The translations under genes were made by a program, and so were the position numbers. Shown piece after piece: positions 11,194 through 19,702 of a stretch of DNA of 64,000 nucleotides. Where the stretch lies: assembly GCF_030580675.1 (NCBI RefSeq), contig NZ_JAUQUB010000003.1, forward strand, positions 1 through 64,000, given 5' to 3'. The stretch is from Antiquaquibacter soli. GTDB taxonomy: Bacteria > Actinomycetota > Actinomycetes > Actinomycetales > Microbacteriaceae. Every line of letters starts with the position of its first letter. Position 1 is the first letter of the stretch. The notes beneath the pieces were generated by a model. That model had not been told where the DNA came from and ran no database searches. It saw only the letters and a program-made list of their open reading frames with translations.

Positions 11194-11786
11194 CGCGCGT
11201 ACTGCGGCGGGCGCCCCGTCGGCCGGTAGACCGACAGCACGATCCCGCTCGGAGTGACTCGCGACGAGTGCAGGTCGAGTGCGGCATCCGGTCCTGCCGG
11301 CGGGAAGAGCCGCTCGCCCTGCCCCACGACCACGGGGAGCGTCATGAGCTCGAGCTGGTCGACGAGGCGGTGGGCGAGGAGCCAGCGCACGAGCATCCCG
11401 CTGCCGGGCACGACGAGGTCGCCGTCGCCCTTCGCCTTCAGCCACTGGATCCGGGATGCCACGTCCCCATCGAGCACGGTGGTACCGGTCCACGACGGTT
11501 CCGTGAGCGTCGTCGAGGCGACGTAGCGCGGAGCCGCGCGGAGGGCGTCGGCGATGGGGCCCTCCTGGTGCGGCCAGTAGTCCGCCCAGATGTCGTAGGT
11601 CACGCGGCCGAGGAGGAACGCGGCGGCCTCCGAGTAGGTGCGCACGATGTACTCGCCCGACTCCTCGTCGCCGATCGGAAGCGACCATCCGCCCCGGGTG
11701 AACCCGCCGCGCGTGTCCTCGGCGGCGCCTCCCGGACCCTGCATGACCCCGTCGAGCGAGACCATCGTCGTCGTGACGAGCCTCAC
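11190..11786 (-). CDS. Dihydrofolate reductase-family protein (RibD C-terminal fold)
   Basis: 198 residues with the RibD_C/DHFR-like fold: MRLVTTTMVSLDGVMQGPGG at the start, FLLGRVTYDIWADYWP near 60, and a nucleotide-binding VVPGSGMLVRWLLAHRLVD near 125. Such stand-alone proteins are common in actinobacteria, bind NADPH and have no settled substrate; they are not the folate-pathway DHFR. GTG at 11786 overlaps the transporter stop (GTGA), so it is cotranscribed with the MFS gene. Function as a reductase is inferred from fold only. Confidence 0.85.
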   Translation of the reverse strand: MRLVTTTMVSLDGVMQGPGGAAEDTRGGFTRGGWSLPIGDEESGEYIVRTYSEAAAFLLGRVTYDIWADYWPHQEGPIADALRAAPRYVASTTLTEPSWTGTTVLDGDVASRIQWLKAKGDGDLVVPGSGMLVRWLLAHRLVDQLELMTLPVVVGQGERLFPPAGPDAALDLHSSRVTPSGIVLSVYRPTGRPPQYAR

Positions 11787-13180
11787 GCGGCCACCTCCTC
11801 GACGGGCTTCACCGACTCCTCGTTATCGGCGTACTGCGCCGAGATGCGCCGGTACGACTTCGTGAGGAACGCGAGAGCCGCCGCGACGACCATGACGAGC
11901 CCGCCGACGAGGAAGACGAGCGCGATCCCGCGCGCCTGCCCCTCCCCGAGCAGCCAGCCCCACGACTGCTGGCCCGCGTCGGAGTTCATGTAGGGGATGA
12001 TCACGAACTCCGCGATCGGGGCGATGAGGAACGCGGTGATGGGTGCCGCCGCCGACTCGAACGCCTGCGCGAACCCGAAGACGCGGCCCTGCGTACGGAA
12101 CGGCACGACCTTCTGGATGACTGTCTGCTCGGCCGCCTCGACCGCCGGGATGATGGTCATGTACAGGAAGATGCCGACCACGTAGAGCAGCCACCACTCG
12201 CGGATCGTGAACATCGCCCCGAGGAATCCCATCACCATGACGAGCAGCAGCATGGTGCGGATCGGGTTGCGGCCGAGGCCGAACTTCGCGATGAGCAGGC
12301 CGCCCACGATGAAGCCGGTCGACGAGATGCCGAGCACGACTCCCCAGATCTCCACCGGGAACAGCTCGAGTCCGTACGGGTCCATGAGCGCCATGTAGAC
12401 GCCGCCGATGAGGTTGTTGAACGTCGAGAAGACGATGAGGGCGAAGAGCCCGGTGACTGCGCGCACCGCGGTGATGCTGCCGCGCAGGTCGAGGAAGGGC
12501 GCTCGCTCGGCGACGTGCGGCTTCTCCTCGGGGATGCGCAGGAACAGAAGGTGCACGAGGGCGAGTGCGGTCAGGACGATCGCGATGAGGAGGGTCCAGC
12601 CCATCCCGAGCAGTCCGACGGAGAGTCCCGAGAAGATGCTTGTCACGAGGAACGCGATGCCCTGCACGGTGCCGACGAGGCCGTTCGCGTTCGCGTGGCG
12701 CTCGACCGGCACGAGCAGCGTGACCGTCGTCGAGAGCGCGATGTTGCGCATGTTCTCGATGACGCCGCCGAACAGGATGATGCCCGAGAACAGCCAGAAC
12801 CACGGACCCCCGAGGTCGAGCAGCGCCTCCTCCGGGAACACCAGGTACAGCCCGCCCGCGATCGAGAATGCGACGAGGGTGACGGTGCCGGCGAACAGCA
12901 TCGCCGCGTGCTTGCGGTGCCGGTCGACGATCGTGCCGAAGACCATCGAGAAGAGCGCGACGAACAGCATGTACGCGCCGCCGATGATGCCCGTCGCGAG
13001 TACCGAGCGGGTCTCGAGGTACACCCAGAAGGTCAGTGCCCACCACAGGTAGCTCGTCGTGATGTTCGCGAGCGCCGTGTTGACGAGCACCTGCAGGAAG
13101 GTGCGCATGCCGTCGGCGGGAGGGGTGTGGGCGGGGCTTTCGGGGGCGGTGGTGGCAGGGGTGGCGTCATCGGTCGTCAT
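11783..13180 (-). CDS. Major facilitator superfamily transporter
   Basis: 465 residues with twelve predicted transmembrane helices and an unstructured, Pro/Ala/Thr-rich N-terminus of about 25 residues. The loop 2-3 region reads FGTIVDRHRKHA, a version of the MFS motif A. The overall layout (long early loop, VERHANANGLVGTVQG in the middle) resembles the enterobactin-exporter-like or drug-efflux MFS group. It is the first gene of a two-gene unit with the DHFR-like gene. Promoter TCGACA-17-TAGAGT lies just upstream. The substrate is unknown. Confidence 0.88.
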   Translation of the reverse strand: MTTDDATPATTAPESPAHTPPADGMRTFLQVLVNTALANITTSYLWWALTFWVYLETRSVLATGIIGGAYMLFVALFSMVFGTIVDRHRKHAAMLFAGTVTLVAFSIAGGLYLVFPEEALLDLGGPWFWLFSGIILFGGVIENMRNIALSTTVTLLVPVERHANANGLVGTVQGIAFLVTSIFSGLSVGLLGMGWTLLIAIVLTALALVHLLFLRIPEEKPHVAERAPFLDLRGSITAVRAVTGLFALIVFSTFNNLIGGVYMALMDPYGLELFPVEIWGVVLGISSTGFIVGGLLIAKFGLGRNPIRTMLLLVMVMGFLGAMFTIREWWLLYVVGIFLYMTIIPAVEAAEQTVIQKVVPFRTQGRVFGFAQAFESAAAPITAFLIAPIAEFVIIPYMNSDAGQQSWGWLLGEGQARGIALVFLVGGLVMVVAAALAFLTKSYRRISAQYADNEESVKPVEEVAA

Positions 13181-13221: not shown

Positions 13222-13707
13222 CTACAGGGACGGCTTGCCCCGGTTCCGCCGCCTCATCTCCTTCGGCGCCCGCTCACCGAGGAACGACCGACCCGAGGCC
13301 ACCACGAAGCCGTGCCGCAGCGCCTCACGACCGATGAGCATGCGGAAGCCCATCGCGTCGCGGTTCGTGAGCGTCACCTCCGCCGTGAGCTCGCGGTCGA
13401 CGAGGATGACCCGCATGAGCACCACGAAGCGCTCCTGCACGTGCCCCGACGAGCTGCGCACCCGCCGCCGATCGTGGATCGGGAGCTCGACGACGACCTC
13501 GTCCTCGTACGACTCCTGCCACGGGCGCACCCGGAAGCGCACCCAGTCCTCGCCCTCGCGATCGAACTGCTTGATCTTGTAGGCGTGCAGCGACGACGTG
13601 CGCGCCCCGGTGTCGAGCTTCGCCTTGATCCAGGGGATGCCGACATCCGGCAGCTGCACCCATTCTCGCCAGCCCGCGAGGGTGTTTGAATGGGGTGTCC
13701 TACTCAC
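13222..13707 (-). CDS. RimB-like retropepsin-fold protease (PF05618, Zn_protease family)
   Basis: 161 residues. The motif AKLDTGARTSSLHA (near 29-42) contains the Asp-Thr-Gly-Ala active-site signature of retropepsin-like folds; VTLTNRDAMGFRMLIGREAL closes the domain. These proteins were first labelled ATP-dependent zinc proteases. In Pseudomonas the homologue RimB works with RimK, trimming glutamates that RimK adds to ribosomal protein S6. Here it is divergent from a rimK gene with only 26 bp between starts, the same functional pairing. GTG at 13707 has CAAGAT then 6 nt upstream. Whether it removes glutamates here is inference. Confidence 0.85.
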   Translation of the reverse strand: MSRTPHSNTLAGWREWVQLPDVGIPWIKAKLDTGARTSSLHAYKIKQFDREGEDWVRFRVRPWQESYEDEVVVELPIHDRRRVRSSSGHVQERFVVLMRVILVDRELTAEVTLTNRDAMGFRMLIGREALRHGFVVASGRSFLGERAPKEMRRRNRGKPSL

Positions 13708-13733
13708 CGCTCCATCTTGGCAGGGCCTCCCCC

Positions 13734-14924
13734 ATGAAACTCGCGATCCTGTCGCGCGCGCCTCGCGCCTACTCGACGCTGCGCCTGCGCGCGGCGGCCG
13801 AGCAGCGCGGACACCTCGTCCGCGTCCTCAACACCCTGCGCTTCGGCATCGACCTGACGGGGGATGAGCCGGACCTGCAGTACCGCGGCAAGCGCCTCAG
13901 CGACTACGACGCGATCCTCCCGCGCATCGGCAACTCGATCACCTACTTCGGCACCGCCGTCGTCCGCCAGTTCGAGCAGATGGACGTGTACACGCCCAAC
14001 ACCGCCAACGGCATCTCCAATGCTCGCGACAAGCTGCGCGCCACCCAGATCCTCTCGCGGCACAACATCGGGATGCCCGCCACGACGTTCGTGCGCAACC
14101 GGGCCGACGTCCGACCCGCCATCGAGCGGGTCGGTGGCGCCCCCGTCGTCATCAAGCTGCTCGAGGGCACCCAGGGGATCGGAGTCATCCTCGCCCCCGA
14201 GGTGAAGGTCGCCGAGGCGATCATCGAGACACTGCAGTCGACGAACCAGAACGTGCTCATCCAGCGCTTCGTCAGTGAGAGCCGCGGCCGGGACATCCGT
14301 GCCCTCGTCGTGGGCGACCGCGTCGTCGCCGCGATGCGCCGCACCGCGAAGGGCGACGAGTTCCGGTCGAACGTGCACCGCGGCGGCTCCGTCGAAGCCG
14401 TGGCACTGCCCGCCGAGTACGAGCAGGCCGCCGTGCGCTCGGCGCAGATCATGGGCCTGCGGGTCGCGGGCGTCGACATGCTCGAGGGCGCGGACGGCCC
14501 GCTCGTGATGGAAGTCAACTCCTCGCCCGGGCTCGAGGGCATCGAGACGGCTACCCAGCTCGACGTCGCCGGTGCGATCGTCGACTACATCGCCGGGCAG
14601 GTCGCGTTCCCCGAGATCGACGTGCGCCAGCGCCTCAGCGTCTCGACCGGCTACGGCGTCGCCGAGCTCCTCGTGCACAACAACGGCGACTTCGTCGGCC
14701 AGAAGCTCGGCGACACGAACCTCGCCGAGCGCGACATCACCGTGCTCACCGTCCACCGCGGTGCCACCGTCATCCCGAACCCGAAGCGCAGCACCGTGCT
14801 CGAGGCGGGCGACCGACTGCTGTGCTTCGGAAAGCTCGAGGAGATGCGCTCCATGATCCCGGAGCGGCGCCGGCGGCGGGCGAAGGTGCGCAAACTGCCT
14901 GCCGAAGCACTGCCGACGGACTAG
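13734..14924 (+). CDS. rimK: RimK-type alpha-L-glutamate ligase fused to a TrkA-C (RCK_C) domain
   Basis: 396 residues. Residues 1-292 are a full RimK ATP-grasp ligase: TPNTANGISNARDKLRATQILSR, the ATP loop VVIKLLEGTQGIGVIL, and the metal-binding end VMEVNSSPGLEGIE (Glu260, Asn262). RimK adds glutamates to protein C-termini, classically ribosomal protein S6. Residues about 303-375 (YGVAELLVHNNGDFVG to LEAGDRLLCFGKLEEM) are a TrkA-C/RCK_C ligand-binding domain, normally found on potassium channels and transporters. A basic tail follows. The ATG at 13734 was chosen because it starts the RimK fold; a frame from 13686 would overlap the divergent gene. The appended domain suggests allosteric control by a nucleotide or ion. 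Confidence 0.9.
   Translation: MKLAILSRAPRAYSTLRLRAAAEQRGHLVRVLNTLRFGIDLTGDEPDLQYRGKRLSDYDAILPRIGNSITYFGTAVVRQFEQMDVYTPNTANGISNARDKLRATQILSRHNIGMPATTFVRNRADVRPAIERVGGAPVVIKLLEGTQGIGVILAPEVKVAEAIIETLQSTNQNVLIQRFVSESRGRDIRALVVGDRVVAAMRRTAKGDEFRSNVHRGGSVEAVALPAEYEQAAVRSAQIMGLRVAGVDMLEGADGPLVMEVNSSPGLEGIETATQLDVAGAIVDYIAGQVAFPEIDVRQRLSVSTGYGVAELLVHNNGDFVGQKLGDTNLAERDITVLTVHRGATVIPNPKRSTVLEAGDRLLCFGKLEEMRSMIPERRRRRAKVRKLPAEALPTD

Positions 14925-17599: not shown

Positions 17600-19702
<2,103 letters not shown>

Follow-up and report, generated by a model that had tools for sequence, protein, structure and literature searches.

The window, i.e., the whole stretch of 64,000 nucleotides from Antiquaquibacter soli that was analysed, carries on its plus strand a gene for a RimK-type alpha-L-glutamate ligase with a C-terminal RCK_C (TrkA_C) domain (13734..14924, 396 aa; Pfam and NCBIfam matches) and, divergent from it on the minus strand, a gene for a RimB-like retropepsin of the Zn_protease family (13222..13707, 161 aa). 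The two start codons are separated by a gap of 26 bp (13708..13733). The fused ORF begins with an ATG at 13734 and its stop codon ends at 14924. A TTG-started ORF of 412 aa overlaps the RimB-like gene by 22 bp; when the ATG-started protein is aligned with full-length relatives, the alignments begin at its residue 1 or 2. On the plus strand, the ORF encodes a RimK pre-ATP-grasp domain (Rimk_N, residues 1-94, 13734..14015; Pfam PF18030, E 4e-34), a RimK ATP-grasp domain (residues 97-286, 14022..14591; PF08443, E 5e-57), a conserved linker (residues 287-308, 14592..14657) where RimK without RCK_C, called plain RimK here, has a short terminal tail, the RCK_C domain (residues 309-373, 14658..14852; PF02080, E 3.6e-11) and a basic tail, which is more weakly conserved in the alignment of fused proteins (residues 374-396, 14853..14921). 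The first-pass annotation had read this gene from its letters as a RimK-TrkA_C fusion and placed the extra domain at about residues 303-375; all three domains are indeed matched in one ORF, and the TrkA_C match reaches 43.2 bits against a gathering cut-off of 27.

At the level of families, the fused protein scores 245.3 bits against TIGR00768, above the NCBIfam cut-off of 143.4, whereas the best-scoring named family, S6--L-glutamate ligase (NF007764), gives 323.9 bits and misses its curated cut-off of 331. The best solved relatives of the RimK core (7qyr, 7qys, 5zct and 4iwx) all bear the name glutamate ligase or S6 modification protein; they match within residues 1-287 only, with 318.5 bits for the alpha-L-glutamate ligase 7qyr. 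The RCK_C domain matches solved Ktr, BusR and KhtT chains weakly in a single-sequence search (E 0.016, 0.019, and 0.38, respectively). The residues K100, K141, R203, D248, E260, and N262, which we take to be catalytic, are the same in E. coli RimK and in all 104 fused proteins aligned; five of them (K100, K141, D248, E260, N262) are presumably the ATP/Mg residues of the ATP-grasp site. Judged by its domains, the ORF is a complete RimK-type alpha-L-glutamate ligase with predicted activity.

The divergent neighbor matches PF05618 (Zn_protease) with an E-value of 2.5e-37 and has a DTGA motif at residue 32, which confirms the RimB-like protease that had been proposed 26 bp from RimK, although its score of 113.7 bits misses the cut-off of 200 of the NCBIfam RimB equivalog. 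Among 96 loci with a RimB match the DTGA motif is present in 91 and DSGA in two, and in the remaining three the inspected stretch did not show the motif. The aspartate D31 of the corresponding DTG motif is reported to be required for cleavage by Pseudomonas RimB (PMC11957791). A CATC(T/C)TGGCAGG-like stretch in the gap at 13708-13733 was seen by eye, uncounted, in many relatives, and perhaps represents ribosome-binding or promoter elements of the RimB and RimK genes. rimA (EAL) was not found at the locus, where the genes flanking RimB and RimK match MFS_1 and EamA. The MFS transporter adjoining RimB (11783-13180, minus strand) resembles H+ antiporter and macrolide-efflux models far under their cut-offs. 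Elsewhere in the window a long ORF on the minus strand (17600-19702) looks by eye like a DEAD-box helicase with an N-terminal run of repeated PAYGDRK-like units.

Distribution, conservation and origin of the fusion

The fusion is genuine: it is conserved across many actinobacteria, and its gene often neighbors one for a RimB-like protease. A contig scan gave at least 522 confirmed relatives, and the best 80 of these (L035-L114), all with actinobacterial titles, match from residue 1 to at least residue 376 with 81-91% identity. In a phylum sample of 396 genomes, 21 have a full-length fused match, the copy in genome G326 having an internal stop, and a 22nd (G299) matches without the N-terminal part; these 22 are spread over eight families. 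Of 120 Microbacteriaceae genomes, 33 encode the full-length fusion, a further 15 give weak matches only, and no plain RimK of comparable score was found in the 120. The survey proposed earlier has thus shown that the fusion recurs, with counts that cover Actinomycetota genomes and the best 80 loci of the contig scan. TrkA_C was present in all 43 fused proteins scanned, own protein included, and matches extend past residue 373 in the best 80 loci, the 21 phylum-sample proteins and the 33 Microbacteriaceae, the last two sets overlapping. A chance extension or an artefact, which the first-pass annotation would have recognized by a missing TrkA_C match or by lack of the domain in close relatives, is ruled out by the 43 of 43 matches and the recurrence across families. 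A plasmid-borne fusion was rejected as well: only one of 106 matching plasmid records covers at least 80% of the query, and it is a plain RimK of 301 aa.

The 104 aligned sequences, some of which are near-duplicates, comprise the own protein, 19 phylum-sample loci (the stop-bearing one was dropped), the 80 best loci and four Microbacteriaceae. The mean majority-residue fraction is 0.906 in each core domain, 0.915 in the linker, 0.826 in RCK_C, and 0.747 in the tail. Within RCK_C, 15 of 65 positions are invariant, among them D334, L338, R342, P348, N349, and P350. Pairwise dN/dS, calculated from 2481 of the 3240 pairs of 81 sequences, which are non-independent pairs, is 0.16 for core plus linker, 0.36 for RCK_C and 0.40 for the tail. 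Therefore, RCK_C is under purifying selection, which is weaker than that on the catalytic core.

In a tree of the RimK core (56 rows, residues 1-288, midpoint root) the 33 fused rows form one clade (100/100) on a branch of length 0.85, and the 23 plain RimKs lie outside of it. With such a long branch, substrate use may have changed in the fused clade. Plain RimKs stop after 291-304 residues in 22 of 23 cases and after 328 in the other. A fused and a plain RimK occur together in genomes G194 and G326. Among the matches listed, the separate RCK_C gene closest to a plain RimK is that of genome G331, at a distance of about 7.6 kb. When RCK_C subfamilies were compared in a hand-picked sample, citrate-transporter, antiporter and channel types all matched. 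At four further loci (L214, L217, L219, L227), frames of ~300-430 aa carry a related RCK_C without a further Pfam match.

Partner genes of the fused RimK

RimB lies divergently beside RimK in all 80 of the best 80 of at least 522 relatives. Among the 22 phylum-sample genomes with the fusion, eight have RimB as the divergent neighbor, five have it on the same strand at a distance of up to 3 kb, and nine have it elsewhere in the assembly. PF05618 was detected in all 22 fused and in 13 of 14 plain-RimK genomes, but in none of the eight RimK-less genomes searched, so that RimB accompanies RimK with or without RCK_C; plain RimK has RimB as neighbor in 8 of 14 genomes. A third gene encodes an AstE/AspA-type hydrolase (PF24827), which gives a strong match in 16 of the 17 fused genomes outside the Microbacteriaceae and in 10 of the 14 plain-RimK genomes, and it is located within 3 kb of RimB in 24 of the 26 genomes carrying it. 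The hydrolase gene was also found near RimB and RimK at L091:3528-4937 and at 23 further loci of the 113 compared, and plasmids of Phaeobacter and Acaryochloris have RimB, plain RimK and the hydrolase together. It was not found in the own or in four other Microbacteriaceae genomes, and it is present in Agrococcus (L100), a member of that family. The trio can be read as synthesis and endo-cleavage of glutamate chains, perhaps with trimming of their ends by the hydrolase; the Antiquaquibacter soli version has the synthesis and cutting genes only. In another genome (G140, L194:1930-6304) an MgtE-type transporter gene is followed on one strand by a PhoU/RCK_C double protein, then by an ORF whose frame is uncertain and by the fused RimK-RCK_C, and this neighborhood makes a link of the fused RimK to divalent cations possible.

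Acceptor, signal and possible role

We infer the activity, product, allosteric control and signal of the fused enzyme as follows. As an ATP-grasp enzyme of the RimK class, it would add L-glutamates in alpha linkage, and the resulting poly-alpha-L-glutamate may be free in the cytoplasm or sit on an acceptor, generally one other than S6. The fused RCK_C may act as a built-in control of ligase activity or chain length. RCK_C domains of other proteins dimerise, and a ligand can sit in the dimer cleft. The neighboring RimB-like protease would cut the glutamate chains and probably also stimulate the ligase, as Pseudomonas RimB is reported both to remove glutamates and to stimulate poly-alpha-glutamate synthesis by RimK (PMC11957791). 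To this reading, a maker and cutter pair of poly-alpha-glutamate whose maker is controlled via RCK_C by an ion, a proton or a metabolite, we give about an even chance.

Glutamylation of ribosomal protein S6 by the fused enzyme, as in E. coli and Pseudomonas, with RCK_C tying translation to its signal, appears unlikely on balance. The top named family is S6--L-glutamate ligase, albeit below its cut-off, and the S6 of Antiquaquibacter soli (L132) has a long tail with a terminal Glu, which leaves S6 a possible acceptor in this strain. However, a C-terminal Glu of S6 was found in only one of the 22 fused genomes, namely the own, compared to 3 of the 11 plain-RimK genomes whose S6 is complete (in a twelfth it was cut, and two genomes gave no S6 match) and 1 of 24 RimK-less genomes. 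Thus, S6 is no conserved acceptor, and S6 glutamylation is, as far as its C-termini indicate, not what keeps the fused enzyme conserved. Moreover, a lysine at the penultimate position of S6 is reported to abolish the RimK reaction in Pseudomonas (PMC4741518), and RimK may have other roles where S6 lacks a terminal Glu (PMC11957791). The six Microbacteriaceae genomes examined have an S6 with an Ala/Lys-rich C-terminal extension, 119-127 residues compared to 91-112 in the other 52; among these six, the own S6 is the only one with a Glu terminus. Of the S6 target suggested in the first-pass annotation there thus remains a possible acceptor in this organism, whereas it fails as a general one. The second messenger c-di-AMP, which was also suggested there, has lost its ground as RCK_C ligand and was rejected for this organism on the absence of a DAC cyclase. 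RCK_C is an established c-di-AMP domain (PMC10117811; PMC8517857) that serves as sensor in KtrA, KhtT, CpaA, BusR, and CpeA, one of the nearest solved relatives is BusR (E 0.019), and DAC was found in 15 of the 22 phylum-sample genomes with the fusion as well as in all 14 named fusion-bearing genomes of Nocardioidaceae and Intrasporangiaceae. In contrast, the DAC domain PF02457 was not found in the own genome in a search in which it was present in 50 of 60 genomes, nor in any of 120 Microbacteriaceae genomes, with 11 of 14 named controls positive, nor in any of the 24 named Microbacteriaceae genomes with the fusion; this survey of named genomes, whose completeness is not given, covered 38 of 39 loci. 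Since DAC is absent in the own and the 120 family genomes, c-di-AMP is very unlikely as ligand here. The published c-di-AMP signature is not present either: in a hand alignment, the D, R, and N of the signature are replaced by N, A, and T in the own protein and, in the family, mostly by G, by various residues and by T, and the spacer is shorter by one residue. However, this adds little against c-di-AMP, because BusR also departs from the signature and yet binds c-di-AMP (PMC8517857). Position 331, which the hand alignment pairs with a BusR pocket residue and with the signature Arg, varies among relatives (W, R, E, A, S, G, P, L, D, or T), and an Arg there does not track the presence of DAC. 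The lack of DAC has not visibly relaxed the domain, as the identities of RCK_C and ATP-grasp are similarly related in Microbacteriaceae without DAC (0.797 vs. 0.896, nine sequences) and in DAC-bearing lineages (0.695 vs. 0.824, 14 sequences). Taken together, a c-di-AMP-sensing RCK_C is barely conceivable in this organism. With S6 weak as a general target and c-di-AMP unsupported, the proposed link to translation is a guess.

It is highly improbable that c-di-GMP regulates the RimK core while RCK_C plays a secondary role; Pseudomonas RimK is reported to respond to c-di-GMP (PMC4741518) and the own genome has a GGDEF match, but it is the only one. A possible, if doubtful, alternative is that RCK_C senses nothing and serves for dimerisation or docking, with RimB, a RimK oligomer or a transporter's RCK protein as the partner. 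The domain is more weakly conserved than the core, with a dN/dS about twice as high, and one pocket position is free, since residue 331 varies without constraint if its hand alignment with BusR is right; the domain may therefore be such a module without a ligand. RimB is also a constant partner. However, RimB adjoins plain RimK without RCK_C in the 8 of 14 genomes mentioned above, Pseudomonas RimK works with RimB without RCK_C (PMC11957791), and the 104 sequences share D334, R342, P348, N349, and P350 without exception, though possibly for structural reasons.

For the preferred pair of maker and cutter under RCK_C control, the signal is more likely to be an ion, a proton or a common metabolite than c-di-AMP; among the remaining candidates there may also be no ligand at all. 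A potassium link of the fused RimK may be considered by analogy, from the company that the RCK_C domain keeps. In the own genome the other TrkA_C proteins found are two by Na+/H+ exchanger genes, which we read as resembling KhtT, and one TrkA by TrkH. The genome thus keeps three transport-linked RCK_C proteins (L001, L002, L004) in a family without a DAC match in 120 genomes. Glutamate is a main counter-ion of K+. A more specific proposal is a counter-ion buffer gated by potassium or pH and made up of RimK-RCK_C and RimB, in which RCK_C would read the ionic state and thereby set how much glutamate is locked as poly-alpha-glutamate by the ligase and freed by the protease, which we regard as quite unlikely. 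The Rlo system of P. aeruginosa is described as important under osmotic stress (PMC12239564), and glutamate-modification genes are reported to be commoner in brackish than in marine aquatic genomes in a comparison that cites, among others, the RimK poly-Glu paper (PMC10219603). Together with the MgtE/PhoU-RCK_C context these are weak hints that make an ionic or osmotic role plausible.

The first-pass annotation knew of no described example of the fusion, and likewise a search of titles and abstract openings, mostly of open-access literature, found no description of a RimK-RCK_C fusion; we expect that protein databases already show this domain layout. Should RCK_C indeed control the ligase, this would be a case of direct action on an enzyme by a domain that has been studied as a gate of K+ transport. 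It would also equip RimK, about whose role beyond S6 modification little is understood, with an input of its own. The fusion makes two questions testable, namely the purpose of poly-alpha-glutamate and the signal of RCK_C in bacteria without a detected c-di-AMP cyclase domain.

Comparison with known systems

Like the RimKs of E. coli and Pseudomonas, the fused protein has Rimk_N and the RimK ATP-grasp domain over the whole core, and the active-site residues checked are those of E. coli. It differs by the extra linker and RCK_C and by an S6 acceptor that is not conserved. The RimB-like retropepsin partner with its DTG motif is shared with the RimB-RimK pair and with the RimBK hybrid, but the part fused to RimK in the latter is RimB instead of RCK_C (PMC11957791). 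In the main text of that paper, which counts the Streptomycetales among the orders with rimK alone, a word search gave no hit for actino, potassium or c-di-AMP (PMC11957791). The Rlo system of P. aeruginosa also combines a retropepsin with an ATP-grasp protein, poly-Glu cutting and an osmotic phenotype, whereas its protease is secreted, a membrane protein, RloB, takes part, and the passages on the system mention no RCK_C (PMC12239564). The RCK proteins of K+ and cation transport (KtrA/TrkA, KhtT, CpeA) belong to the same domain family as the fused RCK_C, but they serve transporters and have no attached enzyme. BusR comes close in another respect, as its RCK_C is also part of a soluble non-channel protein, although BusR is a GntR-type repressor with a DNA-binding partner domain, binds c-di-AMP and has other pocket residues (PMC8517857). 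It is a precedent that an RCK_C domain on a non-channel protein can be a ligand-driven regulator (PMC8517857).
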